Shown piece after piece: positions 11,020 to 33,598 of a stretch of DNA of 43,586 nt (position 1 is its first letter; each line of letters starts with the position of its first letter). The DNA is from Defluviitaleaceae bacterium (GTDB lineage: Bacteria > Bacillota > Clostridia > Lachnospirales > WQUN01): assembly GCA_009785615.1 (NCBI GenBank), contig WQVX01000005.1, positions 1-43,586 on the forward strand, read 5' to 3'. Position numbers and translations under genes: made by a program. The notes beneath the pieces are model-generated. The model worked only from the letters and a program-made list of their open reading frames with translations, searched no databases and was not told where the DNA came from.

Positions 11020-11345
11020 AAAAAAGGCGTACAGGGGATCCTGATCAAAAAACGATCAACATCACCTGCACGCCTGAATATTTTAACTAATTAAAATTAA
11101 TCAATCTACCCAAACCATTCACTCAAAAAATCCAAATGAATAAACACATGCAAACCATACACTGAAGTATCCAACGGTAACAAAATACAACCTACTTTAC
11201 CCTTGTAAAAAAGGCAAAATTAAGTTATACTGTGCCTACTACAGCGACAGATCTTCTGTGTTTGCAGGTGATGCTTGCTGTGCATCCCCTCAGACGTTGG
11301 TTGATGTCGGCTAAAACATCGCCAAACGTTGTAGTTCCACTTACA
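11020..11345 (-). ncRNA. Candidate structured RNA, copy A (module I)
   Basis: Predicted transcript of about 326 nt from the promoter at 11352-11381 to the T-run after the hairpin GGCGTGCAGG/CCTGTACGCC (minus strand). Visible helices in order are a long hairpin built on CGTTTGG/CCAACG plus GATGT/ACATC, a GGGGATG/CATCACC hairpin, and ACAGA-AGA-TCTGT. Copy B on the other strand has the same helices with different bases. The last 70 bases (from AGTTAAAATATTCAGG to the T-run) are identical in both copies, and the stretch ending in TTTTACAAGGG is nearly so. Frames are not conserved: the 34-codon frame of copy B is broken here. I do not recognise a known RNA family. Confidence 0.6.
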
Positions 11346-11351
11346 TTTTTA

Positions 11352-11381
11352 AGTTTATCATACATTTGATAATTTTGGCAA
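11352..11381 (-). promoter_or_regulatory. Promoter of RNA copy A
   Basis: On the minus strand TTGCCA (11381-11376), an 18-base spacer and TAAACT (11357-11352). The -35 box and the following AATTATC are shared with the copy B promoter, and an A/T-tract lies just upstream, as for an UP element. Confidence 0.6.
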
Positions 11382-24326: not shown

Positions 24327-24355
24327 TTGCCAATATTATCTAACAATGGTACAAT
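24327..24355 (+). promoter_or_regulatory. Promoter of RNA copy B
   Basis: TTGCCA (24327-24332), a 17-base spacer and TACAAT (24350-24355), with an A-tract just upstream. The -35 box is identical to that of copy A. Confidence 0.7.
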
Positions 24356-24361
24356 GGAAAA

Positions 24362-24683
24362 GTAAGATTGGTAATTACAACGTTCGGTTGCGCCTCCCCA
24401 GGCAACAACCGACGCATGAGGGGATGTCAACGAAACATCACCCTGCAAACACAGAAACTCTGTCGCTGTAGTATGCAACAGTATAACTTAGTTTTGCCTT
24501 TTTTACAAGGGCAGGGTTGGTTATTTTGTTCAGTAGGATACTTTGGTGTATGGTGTGGTATGTGCTTATTCATTTGAATTATTTGAGTGGATGGTTTGAA
24601 TAGTTTAATTTTTTAGTTAAAATATTCAGGCGTGCAGGTGATGTTGATCGTTTTTTGATCAGGATCCCCTGTACGCCTTTTTT
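24362..24683 (+). ncRNA. Candidate structured RNA, copy B (module I)
   Basis: Predicted transcript of about 322 nt from the promoter above to the T-run after the terminator hairpin (24629-24683), practically the same length as copy A. Helices in order are CGGTTG/CAACCG with inner GCCT/AGGC, AGGG/CCCT plus GATG/CATC, ACAGA-AAC-TCTGT, and the terminal GGCGTGCAGG/CCTGTACGCC with an inner TGATC/GATCA. The first helices differ in sequence from copy A but keep pairing. A 34-codon frame (24471-24575) exists here but is not kept in copy A. I see no match to RNase P, tmRNA, SRP or 6S RNA. Confidence 0.62.
24629..24683 (+). terminator. Terminator of RNA copy B (module I)
   Basis: A 10-bp stem GGCGTGCAGG/CCTGTACGCC with one G-T pair, an inner TGATC/GATCA hairpin and six T. 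The matching element of copy A lies at 11020-11074 on the minus strand and is identical. Confidence 0.85.
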
Positions 24684-24863
24684 GTATAGTTTTATATAAA
24701 TTAGGCGATGGAGGTGAGTCCAATGACTTGAAAACCTGCTATGCTAACATTAACGTAGTTGGGATAGCACCTAAAAATTGAATAAATACCTAAAGCCTAT
24801 AGCCTGGGACGTTGCCTATGGCGAAAAAAAGATACTTTGCTAATGTAGCAAGGTATCTTTTTT
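24684..24863 (+). promoter_or_regulatory. Conserved structured module II, copy B, with terminator
   Basis: After the first terminator come ATATAAATTAGGC and GGAGGTG (as in copy A), an AGTC/GACT hairpin, GCTAT (24738-24742) pairing with ATAGC (24764-24768), then ACCTAAAAA, TGAAT, and a GCC(T)ATAG/CTATGGC stem. It closes with a strong terminator at 24824-24863 (GATACTTTGCT/AGCAAGGTATC with A and T runs). The ribosome-like site leads only to five codons. It ends 170 bases before the giant surface-protein gene, in the same direction. Confidence 0.5.
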
Positions 24864-25033: not shown

Positions 25034-28000
25034 ATGAAGGCGATAAAATTAAGCCTTAAAGACAGGTTAACAAAGCGGGTTTTAGCAATTGTTGTTGTTG
25101 TTACTATGTTGGTGTCGCTTTTGCTGGGGTGGTTGCCTAATAGGGATGTAGTGGCGGTGGGGGCGCGGGTTTTAGGGACGCCTATTAGTACTGTTGCACA
25201 ATTTCAAGGTATGGGAGGTGTTGGTAGTAGTGGTGAATATCATCTTATTGATAACTTAACCATTAATTTAAATGAGCCTAACAATTTTCAACCTTTGCAC
25301 TTTAGCGGAATCCTTGATGGAAGAGGGCATACTATCACTGTAACAGGTAACAGAACATTATTAAGTCAATCCTTAAATGATATCTATTGGGGGGCACTAT
25401 TTACAGAAGTTACCGGAACCATTAAAAATTTAGATGTGGTATTAAATGTATCCATAGACATTAGAGACACCTTTAATACATTTTGGACGTCACCAAATTA
25501 TATGAGCCACTGGTTTACAAGAGGGGGTTGGTATTTGGGGCGGAAAGCAACTCATCATTTTCCTGATGCATTTTTAGGGGGAATTGTGGGACACCTTAAC
25601 GGTGGTGAAATCACAAACACCAGTGTGAGGGGAAGTTTTAATGTAATGCGTTCTATTGATACTTATCAGGACTATAGCACTAATCGAGAGCTTCATGCTG
25701 TAATACTTAATTCAAACTATTATGCAGGTGGCATTGCTGGGCAGATGAGTGGATCAGCACTTATTAGTACATGTTTTATTGATGGATTAAATATCATTGG
25801 TAACACTGGGACTAACTCATATAATGATTTTCGTTGTAATAGTCATTTATGTTGTGATCATATGAGTTGGCTATGGTGGTGGGATATGATAGATATTTTT
25901 GGTTGTTGTTGTTACGTAATTTGTTATGATTATGTATGCTGTTGCTATGTTGCATGTTGCTGTTTTCAACTTATAGGTCTTAATCGCACTATTTATCGCT
26001 ATCAGGTATTTGCCGCCAACATTGTTGGACAACTAACAGGCGGATATATTACCAATAATTTGATTGGTAATAACAGTCAAGTTGATATTGGCAGTGTAAG
26101 TAACCGGAATTTTATTGGGTACGCGGGAGGTATATTTGGGCATAATGCATTTAGCACATCAACTACTTATGTAAATAGAAATGTGATTCGTGATGTAACA
26201 ATAAGAGCATCAAACCATGGTGCCACAAATTGCAATTATAATGTTGATGAATTTAATGGAACCAATTATGGTTTTGTTGGTTATATTGGAGGTTTTGCTC
26301 AAGAGAACCCGATAGACTTATTGAATTTTGTTCATAATGTTACTACTATCATGACACCGTTTTGGACTAGTGGTGTTTCGCATTTTTACGGAACTATAAA
26401 TAATCCAAGCCTGGAACAATTCGATGAGAGAAACAGGATGCTACCCATGTATTCCGATCTAAATATAGACCATTGGATAGATTCCAGAGATCTGAATCTC
26501 CTGAATATTTATAACGGGCCGACTTTAAGATGGAATACGGTTATGCCGCCTGAACCTAGGTTCACAGGTTTTGATGATGATGATGATGATGTATTTATTT
26601 TTGAACTCTTTCCTCCTACAGAAGTACAGGAGCCTTGGAGGGGTGACATTGACAGATGGACAGATCCCAATGATATCCGTTTTCGTATAGTCGTAAATAG
26701 TATTGCTCAACTTGCAGCACCAATACTCGAAAAGGATGATAACCGTCCTGGGGTATTTGAAGTAGTTATCCCGGCAGATGCAGATGGAAGCCTTTCAGCA
26801 CTTGGGCTTGATGACGAGGATATAGAAATCTTTTGGTATTACGAATATCGTCTTGATGATGCACCTCCGGGTTCGCCAGATACTATCCGCTTTGATCCTC
26901 TTGAAGGAGATAATTTTATAGACTTGAGACATCATGAAGATGGTTTTGTGACTGTATTTATGCAAACGCAAATGAGGGATGCAAACGACAATATTTCTAA
27001 TAGTGTGATTAGTGAGCATAGGATAACAGTTGCCGATTCTAGCTTTAATATGCCGGGACAACTTACCCCATATACTCCAGCCGATGAAGATATTGCTGAA
27101 GTATATGCAGAATTGTCTATGGACATTTCACTAAACGCAACATCACCTTCCGCATTAATACTGAATTCTAATCATGTAGGACTTACGATAAACTCAACTT
27201 CGCTTAACCTTAACAACAATGAAGTTAACGTTGTATCAAGTTATCCCGAAGGTTATATTATAAGTTATGAAACATGGGCACGTTTTCCTAATGCTTATGC
27301 TGATGAATCTGAAATTATTTTTGATATTAGTGTAATAGAATATTATCCTGATAGCGACCCAACTGTTATTATAACTTTAAGAGAAGATCCATCAATCTCT
27401 ATTGAACAACCATTTGGAATTTTAGCTCAACCCCGTAGAGATAATGATGGTAACAATACGATTAATTTTTATTATCCAGATACAGCAAGGCGTGCAGATA
27501 CACGCTTACATTGGCGCGTAGATGATAGTACATCTCCGATAGGAGGTCAAAGTGCTATAGGAGAGTCTCTAATAATTTCAGCTACCCAACTGCCTACATG
27601 TGATGATTATCCTATTGAAATTTTAGTATGGTCACAATCTTCTAATGACAGCTTTTTACGAAGTTCCCCTGTTACTATAGAAATTTATGTAGAAGGGTAT
27701 GGCTGGGGATTAGAACGCATAGATTCTCCAGGACTGGACGGAAGAGGTTCGGAAGGCCAAATAATACTGTATTGTACCGATTTAGGACGTTTCATAAATA
27801 GAGATAACAATTCAGTTTTATTTAGATATCCTGAAGGAAATCTTATCCCTCCACAATCCAGACTATATATTTATTTTTGGCATAATTCAGACAGAGCCTT
27901 TATTGATCAGCGTACAATAGTACCCCCCGGAATATCTACACCACCAATAATTGAACCTTCTGCCGGGGGGAATGAAGGGCTTCTTAACCCTATAATTTTA

Positions 28001-31000
28001 AGACCGGGTAATTTGATAGATAATGTCTCAACTGTAATTTACTATGAACTATACTTTTTTGGTGATGCTAATCCAATCGTGGGATACACACTACCGTTGT
28101 TAAGGACGGATGCTCACACCATTGAATGGGACACCATAAAATATTATTTTAGAGGAGAAGAAATGAGGCTTACTGCCTCTGCTATTGAAACTCCAATAGG
28201 CGGTGTTCAGGTTCCTATTCCAAATGCCCGCAGTGATAATACAATAAGAGTATTCCACCACACGCAAAAAGCTCGTGATGATCCTCCACTGATTATAGAT
28301 ATTAGATCAGGATTACCAGGTTCAACAATTAATGCTGATAGAACTCACTTTTTTGCAGAAGGGGAAAGGATAGGTATTAGGCTCCCGGATGGTATTTTTG
28401 TTGATGACTCTTTACAAATAAATATTAGTACAGGTGATATGATTGTACACGCTCAAAATGACGGATCTTTTGTTATTGAAGCAGATATGATTGATAGAAA
28501 TAGTCTCACTATAGATGCGTGGTATACTCGTACTAATTTCCCAGACTCAAGACCAATTAGAAGAATAGTCAATATTAGGGCTTATCCTAGACAGCCTATC
28601 CCTTCAATCCCTACAAATGAACGTATAAGAAGAGGAGAAACATTAAGATTTTTCCTGCATCCTGATGATTTTATGAGGGCAGAGCGAGTTTATTATGTAC
28701 CATATGATACGGAATCTCCGGATTGTTTTACCGAGTATACCCAACGATTAGCCTTTGACCGAATACCTCCGGGTATGATACGAAACTTCCGCCCTGTTGT
28801 TATTGTCACTAGTGAGGCAGCAGTTGGATATCTTGAAGGTGCTATGCCAATTTTCCGCTATTATTTAAACAACATAGCAAGTGAATATAATTTTGGAAGG
28901 CCGGAAATATGGCTTTCTAATAATAACGAGTATAGACTTTTAAGAGATTATATCAGTCCAAGGGAAACGAGACCACTTACCGGTGCCGGGCAAAATATTG
29001 TTGTGGATACAGTATTAAATACCAGAAACCCCAATTTTCATCTTGCCCTAAGAGAAGAAGCTTATTTAACATACAATTTCCAAACCCAGCTTCCAACACC
29101 AGAGGGATTGCCATCTGATGAAACAGAAGATGGAATGTCAAGGAGAGAATTAGACTTTAATTACACCGTTTATTTATTTATACCGAGGGATGAATTAATT
29201 CAAATTTCAGCAAATCCTCGAATGTACTATACAGTAAATGAAGATGACCCTGAAGTAATTTGGAATCCACTCACCAGAAGATACGATGTAACTAATGGCA
29301 CATTATATAACCACGATGAAGGTATTTGGGGGTATGACAACCAAGAAGGCAGGTTAACCATAAGAGCAATTGCTGTATTAGAAGGGTACGAACCCAGCAG
29401 AGTTAGTGCCTTGCGGTACTACGTACGGCCTCAAACCAGTGTTCCTTCACCAAGTGTCCTTCCTCCAACCAGTACCGTAGTTGATGCAGATGCTGATAGA
29501 ATAACGGTAGTGGAATCAGGTACGCGCATATCGCTTTTTGCAGCTATTGCAAATGCAAGAATCAGATATGGTATTGGTAGCTATGTTACTAGTGACTACG
29601 TTCATAATCGAACCCAAATTGTGGCTAGGGGTGAGCCTGGTGATTTGTTTATGGTTACAGCCATGGCGTTTCTAAGAACCGGTAACGAAATAACCGGCGA
29701 AGAGATTCTAAGGGATAGCGAACCCGTAACTTTTGTTTTTAGGATAGCAGATCAGGTAACAGCACAACCCCCAACTTCTTGGCCTGTAACCACCAACGAA
29801 AATGTAGCAGTAGTACAACGTGGTAGTAGAGTAACACTACAAAGCCCAAATGGACTGCATGTTATTTATAGTATAGATGGACGCCCAAATCCTGAGCATG
29901 TACGATTTACAGGCCCGGAAAATAATCGACGTCTTGAGCATGTTAATAATAATGCAGTAACCAGGGCAACAAGGATATACGATAGCGCAACCGGTATAAC
30001 CATAGAAGGTGAACTTGGCGGCTTAGTTAACATAAGTGCCATGGCCTTTGCAGGCCCGGATAACCAGAGCTTCCATAATAGCGATATCGTAACTTTTACT
30101 TACAGTATAGAAACTCGACAAGCGGCCACTCCTGTAGCAACGCCTACAACCGAGGATGGGATTCCTCGTATATTACCTAACAATAGCTTGATAACTCTAC
30201 GTACACCTACAACAACAGCAAACATATATTATTCAACTATTGGCACACCCATTCCCGGACATGCAGATACTACTACTTTAGGGGCAAATAGCGGTACCAT
30301 TCAAATCTCCGGTGCTCCGGGAGAATTCGTCAATATCCGTACCATTGCTATAGGCAATAACATGCTTGATTCCGACATGGCCTTATTCACATTCCAAATT
30401 GAGGAATTGCAAGTGGTACAACCTCCTACTGCATGGCCTCGTACTACCCCGGAAGAAACCGCAATAGTACCTTTAGGCAGTTATATATTTCTGCAATCTG
30501 AGACAACAGATGCTACCATCTATTATAGTAGAACCGGCGCACCCAACCGTCGGTTAACGGATGGAGGCATTCGCGTAGAAGGCACTCCCGGTACAACTTT
30601 TAGAATACATGCACAGGCAACAGCTCCGGGTATGCGAGAAAGTGATATAGTTATTTTTACCTACCAAATTGCAGACCTAAATGTGGTGCTTCCTCCTGTA
30701 GCGTGGCCTCGCACTACCCCGGAAGAAATTGCAGTGGTGCCGCTAGGTAGTCATATAGTGTTACAATCTGATACGCCAAATGCTGTCATAAGTTATAGCA
30801 GGAGTGGTACGCCAAACCGACCTTTCCCAAGTGGGGGTATCCCGGTGGAAGGAGATCCGGGCACCACTTTTAGGATACATGCAAGAGCCACAGTTCCGGG
30901 TATGCGAGAAAGTGATGTTGTTATCTTTACCTACCAAATTGCAGACCTTAATAGAGTACTTGCTCCCACTGCTTGGCCTCAAACTACCCCGGAAGTAGAG

Positions 31001-33598
31001 GAAATTGCAGTAGTAGCTTTAGGCAGTCATATATTCCTTCAATCTGATACGCCAAATGCTACCATTTATTACAGCAACACAAGTGTGCCTGACAGACTCT
31101 TTCCAAATGATGGTATTCTTGTAGAAGGTACACCGGGCAGTACCTTTAGAATACATGCTCATGCCAGAGTTCCGGGTATGCAGGAAAGTGATATTATTAT
31201 TTTCACTTATCAAATAGAAACCATGAATGCTGTAGCTGCTCCAATCGCTACCCCGGAAACTAGTGACAGCGAGCCTACTATAATGTCAAGAGGATCTTCT
31301 ATAAGACTACGTAGCCCAACTGCAACGGCAACAATATTCTATTCATTAGAAGGAATGCCGGTAGTAGAAAACAGGGCAGACGGAAGCTTCCACCCGGCCG
31401 AAGGTACCAACCAACTGGATGTAAGCCAAATTATCACTGTGCCTGACGATTGGGAAAGTGAGTTCTTTGTAATAAATGCTATAGCTGTAGCTGATGGAAT
31501 GTACGATAGCGATATTGCTACCTTTACCTATCGCCTCCCGGCATCAGTTCATCCGGTACAAGCAAATCCCGGAAGCAGAACCGTTGTCCGCGGTACAGAA
31601 GTTTCGCTCTCCACTGCAACACAATATGCCACTATATACTTTGAAATCTCTTCCGCATACGCAGAATTAACAGACCCAATTCCGGGAGAAAGCCAAGTAT
31701 TTAATTTGCCAATCGTAATAGAATCTGACACACATATTCGTGCTATTGCCGCAAGAGAAGGGGAATTTAGCAGAATCACTACATTCTCATATACCATGGC
31801 AGATCAATTACCGGCACCAGTACCGTCTATCCCCAGTGGCTCTATTGTGCCAAGAGGTACCATGCTTAACCTTACAACTACCGAAGGAGCAAGCATCACA
31901 TATACCAAAGATGGTACAGATCCAACCAACCCGGATAACCCGTCCAGGATGCATGGATCAACCATTGCCCTTGATGCAGAAGCGGGTCAGAGTATAAGCA
32001 TCTCTGCTTTTGCTCATATGACAGGGCAGACTCCAAGTGAAATTGTTTCCTTTACGTACTCTGTACTGGATTCTAATGCGGCTATAGTAGCGCACCCTCC
32101 TTCCGGCTCTGATGTGCATGTAGGCGGCTGGATTACGCTGGTTACGCAAATCACAGGTGCTGAAATAAGGTATGCTGTGGGGGATACGGATCTTGATAAT
32201 AACGCCGGAACAATATCATCCGGCGGAAGAGTGCAAGTCGCGGGGCAACCCGGTGGAACCTTTATAATTCGTGCGCAAGCGGTATCAGGATCAATAGAGT
32301 CTATGCCAATGATGTTCTACTATAATATATCTTCACGGGCGCATCCTCCAAACCCAAGCATCTTGGACGGGGCACGTGTCACACAAGGTACCCGCTTAGC
32401 CTTTAACGTACCTAACGGAGTTGTTTATTACAGGGTTGACAATATTATAAATGGCCTACGGACAACGGGCAGCTTGCAAACTTATACAGGGCCATTTGTA
32501 CTACAAGGTGATCCCGGTACAGAAATAAGGGTAACTGCCTTTACACGAGCAGAAGGCTTAGAAGATAGCGAAGAAAGAGTTTTTTCATATCGCATGTCTA
32601 ACCAAACTGCGCCACCTGTGGCACGGCAAGTAATAAGTGATGGCACGTTTAATCGCTATGTTGATATCAGCGGTGAGATTAATAACGTAGATAGAAGGCA
32701 AGGAGTCATGATATCGCTTTCCGGTGCCACGCCAAATGCTGTAATCTACTATACTTCTAATGGAACTGTGCCCCCTGTCGGATCTCCTGAATGGATTCGT
32801 TATGAAGGCCCATTCTCAGTGCATCGGTCTGTAACAATAAATATGTTTGCAATAGCCCCGGATATGGATCCAAGCGAAAACGAACGTCAGCACATTAGAA
32901 TTAATTTCATTGGAGATGAAGATTACGACGAAGAATTTGAAATTGACGATGACATGGATTTTATTCTTGTCTATACTCATCTTGAAACTGATGTCCAGTT
33001 GCGCATTAGATTTACTGAAGAAGGGGAAGATCCAATCTTGCCTGAAAACGCACGACTGGAAGTAGTAAGACTGGAACCGAACGATGATACCTTTATCGGC
33101 GTAAGGGATAGGGTTATCCGTGCAAACTTGAGTGCTAACGGCTCTGAAGTGGTAGATGTGCAGGTAGTTGAACTTTATGAAATTCATGTTTATGTAGAAG
33201 AAAACGGACAAACACGACGAATCAACAATGGCTTTGATGAAGGTAGCATAAGAATTGGAATTCCTCTACAAGATAGTTATAGAGATGCTATTGTAAGAGT
33301 ATGGCATATTCCGAATGAAAATGTGTTGCCAAATCCATTATATACCATAAGAAGAGGCAGCAGAGGTACGATTTTCATTCAACCGCCAAGCTTTAGCCAT
33401 TTCGCCGTAGTAGTCCCTTATGTAAGCCATGTGAACCAAAACCAAGGCTTTAATTTTCAATGGCTTATGTTAATACCGCTATTAGTTACATGTATAACTG
33501 TTCCTGTTTTCATCATAAAAAAGAAAAAAAGGGATTCCTATGCACCACTAATAGAAAATGATACAGAAGAAGAAAGTGACACAGAACAGTCAGTATAA
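25034..33598 (+). CDS. Giant membrane-anchored surface protein with chitobiase/Fn3-like repeats
   Basis: A 2854-residue exported protein. Residues 1-42 are a long signal peptide. About 43-480 is a beta-helix-like region with GLUG-type pieces (GILDGRGHTITVTGN, GGIVGHLNGGEITNTSVRGS, NIVGQLTGGYITNNLIGN), interrupted by a Cys/Trp-rich insert (about 267-315). Residues about 480-1465 are unrecognised. About 1466-2625 hold some twelve Ig-like modules of 85-110 residues with the pattern GTxIxLxS...ATIYYS...G...IxAxAxxxGMxxSDIxxFTYxI, which fits the chitobiase C-terminal (CHB_HEX_C/Fn3-like) family; three consecutive modules are very similar. The end has one membrane helix (about 2808-2830) followed by KKKKR and an acidic tail, so it is anchored in the membrane and not by SLH or LPXTG. 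GAGGAGGG lies 8 bases before the ATG. It is probably adhesive or carbohydrate-binding; no catalytic motif was found. Confidence 0.85.
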   Translation: MKAIKLSLKDRLTKRVLAIVVVVTMLVSLLLGWLPNRDVVAVGARVLGTPISTVAQFQGMGGVGSSGEYHLIDNLTINLNEPNNFQPLHFSGILDGRGHTITVTGNRTLLSQSLNDIYWGALFTEVTGTIKNLDVVLNVSIDIRDTFNTFWTSPNYMSHWFTRGGWYLGRKATHHFPDAFLGGIVGHLNGGEITNTSVRGSFNVMRSIDTYQDYSTNRELHAVILNSNYYAGGIAGQMSGSALISTCFIDGLNIIGNTGTNSYNDFRCNSHLCCDHMSWLWWWDMIDIFGCCCYVICYDYVCCCYVACCCFQLIGLNRTIYRYQVFAANIVGQLTGGYITNNLIGNNSQVDIGSVSNRNFIGYAGGIFGHNAFSTSTTYVNRNVIRDVTIRASNHGATNCNYNVDEFNGTNYGFVGYIGGFAQENPIDLLNFVHNVTTIMTPFWTSGVSHFYGTINNPSLEQFDERNRMLPMYSDLNIDHWIDSRDLNLLNIYNGPTLRWNTVMPPEPRFTGFDDDDDDVFIFELFPPTEVQEPWRGDIDRWTDPNDIRFRIVVNSIAQLAAPILEKDDNRPGVFEVVIPADADGSLSALGLDDEDIEIFWYYEYRLDDAPPGSPDTIRFDPLEGDNFIDLRHHEDGFVTVFMQTQMRDANDNISNSVISEHRITVADSSFNMPGQLTPYTPADEDIAEVYAELSMDISLNATSPSALILNSNHVGLTINSTSLNLNNNEVNVVSSYPEGYIISYETWARFPNAYADESEIIFDISVIEYYPDSDPTVIITLREDPSISIEQPFGILAQPRRDNDGNNTINFYYPDTARRADTRLHWRVDDSTSPIGGQSAIGESLIISATQLPTCDDYPIEILVWSQSSNDSFLRSSPVTIEIYVEGYGWGLERIDSPGLDGRGSEGQIILYCTDLGRFINRDNNSVLFRYPEGNLIPPQSRLYIYFWHNSDRAFIDQRTIVPPGISTPPIIEPSAGGNEGLLNPIILRPGNLIDNVSTVIYYELYFFGDANPIVGYTLPLLRTDAHTIEWDTIKYYFRGEEMRLTASAIETPIGGVQVPIPNARSDNTIRVFHHTQKARDDPPLIIDIRSGLPGSTINADRTHFFAEGERIGIRLPDGIFVDDSLQINISTGDMIVHAQNDGSFVIEADMIDRNSLTIDAWYTRTNFPDSRPIRRIVNIRAYPRQPIPSIPTNERIRRGETLRFFLHPDDFMRAERVYYVPYDTESPDCFTEYTQRLAFDRIPPGMIRNFRPVVIVTSEAAVGYLEGAMPIFRYYLNNIASEYNFGRPEIWLSNNNEYRLLRDYISPRETRPLTGAGQNIVVDTVLNTRNPNFHLALREEAYLTYNFQTQLPTPEGLPSDETEDGMSRRELDFNYTVYLFIPRDELIQISANPRMYYTVNEDDPEVIWNPLTRRYDVTNGTLYNHDEGIWGYDNQEGRLTIRAIAVLEGYEPSRVSALRYYVRPQTSVPSPSVLPPTSTVVDADADRITVVESGTRISLFAAIANARIRYGIGSYVTSDYVHNRTQIVARGEPGDLFMVTAMAFLRTGNEITGEEILRDSEPVTFVFRIADQVTAQPPTSWPVTTNENVAVVQRGSRVTLQSPNGLHVIYSIDGRPNPEHVRFTGPENNRRLEHVNNNAVTRATRIYDSATGITIEGELGGLVNISAMAFAGPDNQSFHNSDIVTFTYSIETRQAATPVATPTTEDGIPRILPNNSLITLRTPTTTANIYYSTIGTPIPGHADTTTLGANSGTIQISGAPGEFVNIRTIAIGNNMLDSDMALFTFQIEELQVVQPPTAWPRTTPEETAIVPLGSYIFLQSETTDATIYYSRTGAPNRRLTDGGIRVEGTPGTTFRIHAQATAPGMRESDIVIFTYQIADLNVVLPPVAWPRTTPEEIAVVPLGSHIVLQSDTPNAVISYSRSGTPNRPFPSGGIPVEGDPGTTFRIHARATVPGMRESDVVIFTYQIADLNRVLAPTAWPQTTPEVEEIAVVALGSHIFLQSDTPNATIYYSNTSVPDRLFPNDGILVEGTPGSTFRIHAHARVPGMQESDIIIFTYQIETMNAVAAPIATPETSDSEPTIMSRGSSIRLRSPTATATIFYSLEGMPVVENRADGSFHPAEGTNQLDVSQIITVPDDWESEFFVINAIAVADGMYDSDIATFTYRLPASVHPVQANPGSRTVVRGTEVSLSTATQYATIYFEISSAYAELTDPIPGESQVFNLPIVIESDTHIRAIAAREGEFSRITTFSYTMADQLPAPVPSIPSGSIVPRGTMLNLTTTEGASITYTKDGTDPTNPDNPSRMHGSTIALDAEAGQSISISAFAHMTGQTPSEIVSFTYSVLDSNAAIVAHPPSGSDVHVGGWITLVTQITGAEIRYAVGDTDLDNNAGTISSGGRVQVAGQPGGTFIIRAQAVSGSIESMPMMFYYNISSRAHPPNPSILDGARVTQGTRLAFNVPNGVVYYRVDNIINGLRTTGSLQTYTGPFVLQGDPGTEIRVTAFTRAEGLEDSEERVFSYRMSNQTAPPVARQVISDGTFNRYVDISGEINNVDRRQGVMISLSGATPNAVIYYTSNGTVPPVGSPEWIRYEGPFSVHRSVTINMFAIAPDMDPSENERQHIRINFIGDEDYDEEFEIDDDMDFILVYTHLETDVQLRIRFTEEGEDPILPENARLEVVRLEPNDDTFIGVRDRVIRANLSANGSEVVDVQVVELYEIHVYVEENGQTRRINNGFDEGSIRIGIPLQDSYRDAIVRVWHIPNENVLPNPLYTIRRGSRGTIFIQPPSFSHFAVVVPYVSHVNQNQGFNFQWLMLIPLLVTCITVPVFIIKKKKRDSYAPLIENDTEEESDTEQSV
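25834..25977 (+). other. Cys/Trp-rich low-complexity insert in the giant protein
   Basis: This stretch is rich in tgt/tgc codons and encodes about 13 Cys in fewer than 50 residues (CC, WLWWW, three CCC runs), in contrast to the almost Cys-free rest of the protein. It interrupts the GLUG-like region between two otherwise regular repeats. Confidence 0.75.
30413..31228 (+). repeat. Three near-identical 90-residue modules
   Basis: Units of 270, 270 and 276 bp begin at about 30413, 30683 and 30953 with PPTAWPRTTPEE or a close variant and end with IFTYQIADLN or IFTYQIETMN. High similarity at DNA level (for example the accccggaag segments) points to recent tandem duplication. Confidence 0.8.

Follow-up and report, generated by a model that had tools for sequence, protein, structure and literature searches.

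A multicopy chromosomal element of Defluviitaleaceae as a probable antisense-controlled transcription attenuator

Nature offers few antisense attenuators, and those in textbooks are copy-control units of plasmids. The pT181 and pIP501 units regulate the rep genes of these plasmids and the plasmid copy number. In these attenuators, a counter-transcribed RNA is recognized through hairpin loops, and the leader takes either an antiterminator or a terminator form (PMC5415839, PMC3753616). Designers of RNA circuits have complained of a dearth of natural antisense attenuators, and an engineered set of orthogonal pT181 attenuators (7 x 7) combines one shared attenuator with various kissing hairpins (PMC3753616). 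Here, we address a repeated element found in a stretch of 43,586 nucleotides (nt) from a Defluviitaleaceae bacterium (contig WQVX01000005.1, positions 1 to 43,586, assembly GCA_009785615.1; hereafter the window), with copy A at 11020-11381 on the minus strand and copy B at 24327-24683 on the plus strand. Each copy is probably a cis-antisense transcription attenuator, pT181/pIP501-like but chromosomal.

The element shares with pT181 and pIP501 a predicted counter-transcribed RNA and a choice between antiterminator and terminator; loop recognition, which would fit the loop diversity, may be common to both. It differs from these plasmid units in being chromosomal, with dozens of paralogs per genome, in different targets, in an antisense RNA predicted as a conserved four-way junction, and in the plasmid, phage and viral contig collections, which gave zero matches to it. 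The RNA family is widespread and previously unlisted. The novelty proposed in a preliminary description of this DNA, made from the letters alone, holds against Rfam 15, which gave zero matches to the window at the gathering cut-off and only chance-level ones at relaxed thresholds (for example, a trpB motif at 19-21 bits, where the cut-off is 59). Literature searches found no prior description; they covered open-licence papers, so that an unseen description is possible.

The preliminary description recognized two copies, and re-reading the sequence of both bears out their position, the common -35 box TTGCCA, the length of about 325 nt from the start region to the T-run, the first helices, the ACAGA/TCTGT pairing and a 3' end of about 70 identical bases holding the terminator. 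The 5' domain is helical in both, and the similarity of the copies is far beyond chance. The pair is real, but the number was too low. In the own genome, blastn could align nine copies and also picked up a diverged second group; the covariance model R1, which represents the 5' domain, found 30 copies there at about 73 bits or more, and a second model built from relatives' sequences (R2) found 58 at E<=0.001, where the short calibration makes E-values rough. Many copies (L190, L191, L195, L196, L198, L200 and others) are located no more than a few hundred bases from the end of a contig; the assembly has therefore probably been interrupted by the repeats at these points, and the true number of copies may be higher.

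Beyond this genome, blastn of 60 relatives returned only short, chance-like matches, an apparent absence that a covariance model overturned. Of the 38 family genomes searched with R2, 25 contain matches, with a maximum of 24 in one relative. When 84,980 species were scanned with a DNA pattern, 36 loci emerged, every one in metagenome-assembled genomes titled Defluviitaleaceae, whose isolate names suggest termite-gut samples as the source. A third model (R3) was based on a wider set of sequences and represents the antisense strand; it detected the element in a class draw of 391 genomes (14 positive) and in a phylum draw of 398 (4 positive), with the own genome counted in both. Training of R3 included seven remote class-draw sequences (L207-L213), and the remaining remote matches had no part in that training. 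Complete genomes with homologs hold only a few copies each.

The strand on which the structure is selected is central to the argument. In the four-way junction, 19 of 29 pairs changed on both sides among 36 relatives, and 26 of 30 did so (149 cells) among 34 diverse sequences from across Bacillota. None of 500 shuffles reached the observed covariation, and slid controls were far lower. On the sense strand, the non-Watson-Crick cells are C.A in 70 cases and G.U in 13, and in the own-genome set 24 and 13. A sense C.A is an antisense G.U, which points to the antisense RNA as the fold kept by selection, and the predicted antisense folds are more stable than the sense folds. The folded species under selection is thus the predicted antisense RNA, a four-way junction with both ends paired in P1. 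The P3 helix varies hardly at all and could serve both strands. The functional structured RNA of the preliminary description stands as far as it covaries across the collected homologs and lacks an Rfam family. The covariation also makes plausible the remark, made there, that the copies conserve no reading frame. A single stand-alone RNA on the strand read there is unsupported, because the opposite strand's fold is the selected one and has its own promoter, while the sense transcript behaves as a leader. In one copy (L190, G000:C39:231-348), the top of the P2 hairpin looks inverted relative to near-identical sister copies.

The antisense promoter, which the preliminary description overlooked, lies inside the element. 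Behind P1 stands a conserved motif (AAGTATACACATT, CAGTATAACTTAG) and then CAAG; on the complementary strand, this sequence becomes TTGNNN-N17-TATACT/TATAAT. The pattern TTG-N17/18 with TATAMT or TAAACT is found in 53 of 56 copies. With the -10 box fixed, the TTG stands at 17 nt in 48 of these copies and at 18 nt in 5; other spacings mostly have 0-2, but 23 nt has 5 and 28 nt has 14. Among remote matches, 38 of 39 have a TTG at 16-18 nt. The -35 box is an independent check, since it lies outside the covariance models, which contain the -10 box. Antisense transcription is predicted to start at the P1 3' strand, where the structured domain begins. At the level of promoter sequence, the leader thus holds, as an attenuator should, an internal promoter whose counter-transcribed RNA would lie over its 5' part. 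Both RNAs, sense and antisense, are presumably transcribed.

The second component is the switch itself. The best downstream duplex of the P3 3' strand (X') joins it to the terminator 5' strand (Y) over about 10-13 base pairs (bp) in almost every one of the 56 copies. The exceptions are L050, truncated by a contig end, L061, which fails, and L078 and L058, which are weak. Compensatory changes keep X' and Y complementary (CATCGCC/GGCGATG in L083, CGCCTAC/GTAGGCG in L068). In the relatives' consensus, there is a bulge in P3 and in the terminator (GTAGGGATG/CATCACCTAC and GTAGGTGATG/CATCCCTAC), whereas the long-range duplexes are perfect. Folding of nascent prefixes predicted the antiterminator in 41 of 54 copies, and folding with the 5' domain blocked predicted the terminator in 52 of 54. 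A leader strand with an alternative pairing to the 5' half of the terminator, as expected of an attenuator, is therefore present.

The third component is the variability of the loops. Within own-genome subgroups, P3 loop identity is 0.35-0.51 against 0.88-0.97 for the remaining domain, save for one group 1a pair with 0.25 against 0.86; the loop windows take in a few closing-stem bases, so that the real contrast is larger, and middle-region identities are underestimated for groups with copies truncated at contig ends. All 37 P3 loops compared are distinct, even among copies 94-97% identical elsewhere; three group-1 copies, copy B included, were missed by the loop regular expression, and their loops are visibly different in the alignment. 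The P2 loop is also variable, less strongly. This diversity of sequence fits recognition between complementary hairpins, and loop changes apparently keep the copies from mutual interference. Within-copy pairing of the P2 loop with the P3 loop was considered and was inconsistent by eye. In one genome, L132 and L143 have an identical P3 loop; the 5' half of L143 is replaced, and it may be a broken copy.

These components can be joined into one mechanism. The sense promoter would produce a leader with helices P1-P4, followed by the intrinsic terminator. Without antisense RNA, X' would pair with Y, the P3 5' strand could pair with the terminator 3' strand (Y'), and the broken terminator would allow read-through. 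The second promoter, firing backwards within the leader, would yield an antisense RNA of about 110 nt, folded as the four-way junction, whose P3 arm matches the terminator stem in sequence and bears a loop that is the complement of the one in sense P3. Contact between the loops would start pairing, and the antisense RNA would capture X', so that the terminator forms and transcription ends. With copy-specific P3 and, less strongly, P2 loops, each antisense RNA would act on its own leader. Duplex formation and the direction of control are predicted here from complementarity, and some signal may shift the balance.

Several points weigh against this mechanism. In 13 of 54 copies, no antiterminator is predicted in the nascent prefix, and the terminator is the free minimum-energy fold of many full leaders, so that kinetics must matter. 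L080 and L087 have no recognisable terminator, and the antisense 3' end is unclear in the own genome, where the T-run that relatives have after P1 is weak. An open reading frame (ORF) stands close behind the terminator in only 4 of 24 own-genome copies (control, 7 of 22), and the next gene is about 560 nt from copy A and about 350 nt from copy B, past a second terminator-like hairpin. This gene-less majority is the main unexplained point. In favour of the mechanism, the sense leader of relatives runs directly into an ORF, and a same-strand ORF preceded by a Shine-Dalgarno site lies within 250 nt (<=250 nt) behind the terminator in 22 of 25 cases, against 10 of 25 in the control. The downstream products are mixed, including AbrB-type proteins, secreted proteins with stalk or SLH domains, XRE proteins, a response regulator, DUF6809 and SymE; DUF6809 genes adjoin the elements in some genomes, not all.

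The downstream genes bear directly on a reading as a type I toxin-antitoxin system like SymE/SymR, with the antisense RNA as antitoxin and the downstream ORF as toxin, and with repression perhaps also at translation or decay. SymR acts on the translation and stability of symE mRNA in E. coli. The likeness lies in a cis-encoded antisense RNA over the 5' leader and in SymE_toxin ORFs (PF08845; E 3e-12 and 2e-11) after two remote homologs outside the bacterial family, others there being followed by small unknown, XRE or AbrB-fold proteins. However, the element is a predicted terminator switch mostly ahead of other genes, and the products listed above (AbrB, secreted stalk-domain/SLH, response regulator, DUF6809) are mostly not toxin-like. 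The antisense RNA would cover the distal leader and not the ribosome site, and most own-genome copies have no ORF close behind; no SymE-family toxin ORF was found adjoining copies A or B. We regard this reading as unlikely. Marginally less likely still, the antisense RNA could be the product, and the sense transcript its regulator. It might be a small RNA that acts in trans or like a guide, its variable loop directed to targets elsewhere, or else be the transcript of a mobile element without coding capacity. Selection of the fold on the antisense strand, the hypervariable loop, and the many copies without a neighbouring gene or near contig ends would suit such an RNA, but it would need neither X'/Y pairing nor a leader position before ORFs in relatives. 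No recurrent dedicated protein was noticed beside the copies, and the viral contigs, plasmids and phages had no matches.

It is very improbable that the sense strand forms a ligand-sensing riboswitch whose conserved internal promoter is a coincidence. The element resembles riboswitch expression platforms of Rfam classes in its junction domain and terminator/antiterminator within a 5' leader, and it precedes many genes. Unlike them, it has no Rfam match, its loops are hypervariable and copy-specific, its sense strand tolerates C.A and not G.U, its downstream genes share no pathway, and its antisense promoter is nearly universal. That the element is an ordinary repeat or miniature inverted-repeat transposable element (MITE) with chance hairpins is hardly credible, for although it is multicopy and subgroup members have common sequence blocks behind the terminator, this is contradicted by deep covariation across Bacillota, two precisely spaced promoters and the few copies per complete genome in homologs. 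MITE, bridge or other guide RNA, T-box-like specifier and retron were each weighed against the alignment only, and none accounts for both promoters together with X'/Y pairing. Attenuation with locus-specific loops is preferred as the most economical account. In group-4 copies (L193-L200), GCTTGCCC-like sequence stands upstream and GGGCAGGCTCT downstream, possibly marking element ends.

Against the engineered pT181 set, there are apparently 30-58 natural variants in one genome. We give slightly better than even chances to a broader proposal, that chromosomal antisense attenuators orthogonal to one another, as many as about 58 in one genome, use a two-loop recognition code diversifying after each duplication and serve as a general plug-in module of gene control in Bacillota. 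With a natural library of dozens of paralogs that vary mainly in their recognition loops, the rules of specificity between RNAs could be put to a direct test. The element adds to the RNA families one with a conserved antisense four-way junction, and it raises the question of why one gut lineage multiplied it.

Table 1. Coordinates of the element's features in the window, by copy
Copy	Feature	Position	Strand	Detail or basis
A	Sense promoter	11352..11381	-	-35 TTGCCA 11381-11376, spacer 18, -10 TAAACT 11357-11352; homologous promoters in copy alignment
A	5' domain of sense leader, P1-P4	11239..11334	-	Sequence and copy alignment
A	P1	11334-11327 with 11246-11239	-	Within 5' domain
A	P2	11328-11322 with 11300-11295	-	Within 5' domain
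A	Hypervariable P3 loop ACAGCAA, proposed kissing/recognition loop	11275..11281	-	Loop comparison
A	X', P3 3' strand GCATCACCTGCAA, putative antiterminator half	11262..11274	-	12 bp with 11071-11058
A	Antisense promoter	11203..11231	+	-35 TTGTAA 11203-11208, 17-nt spacer, -10 TATACT 11226-11231
A	Proposed antisense RNA, ~110 nt, four-way junction, 3' end uncertain	11238..11345	+	Promoter, wobble, covariation
A	Intrinsic terminator	11020..11074	-	5' strand Y 11071-11058, T-run 11025-11020
B	Sense promoter	24327..24355	+	TTGCCA 24327-24332, 17-nt spacer, TACAAT 24350-24355
B	5' domain of sense leader, P1-P4	24375..24471	+	Sequence and copy alignment
B	Hypervariable P3 loop CAACGAA	24428..24434	+	Sequence and copy alignment
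B	X' ACATCACCCTGCAA, putative antiterminator half	24435..24448	+	Duplex search
B	Antisense promoter	24480..24508	-	-35 TTGTAA 24508-24503, 17-nt spacer, -10 TATACT 24485-24480
B	Proposed antisense RNA, 3' end uncertain	24370..24473	-	Promoter and wobble evidence
B	Intrinsic terminator	24629..24683	+	5' strand Y 24632-24645, T-run 24678-24683
B	Downstream GGAGGTGAGTCCA-ATG-ACT-TGA, ribosome site and two-codon ORF, recurs in group-1 copies	24710..24731	+	

Behind the terminator of several group-1 copies among L002-L009, as in copy B, come a ribosome site and an ATG-ACN-stop ORF, then a hairpin and another terminator; this two-codon ORF is missing from copy A. Downstream of copy B, a gene at 25034-33598 of the window encodes a repetitive surface-type protein of 2854 amino acids. 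In a Defluviitaleaceae relative (L067), positions 874-911 match the Rfam family SECIS_4 at 63.6 bits.
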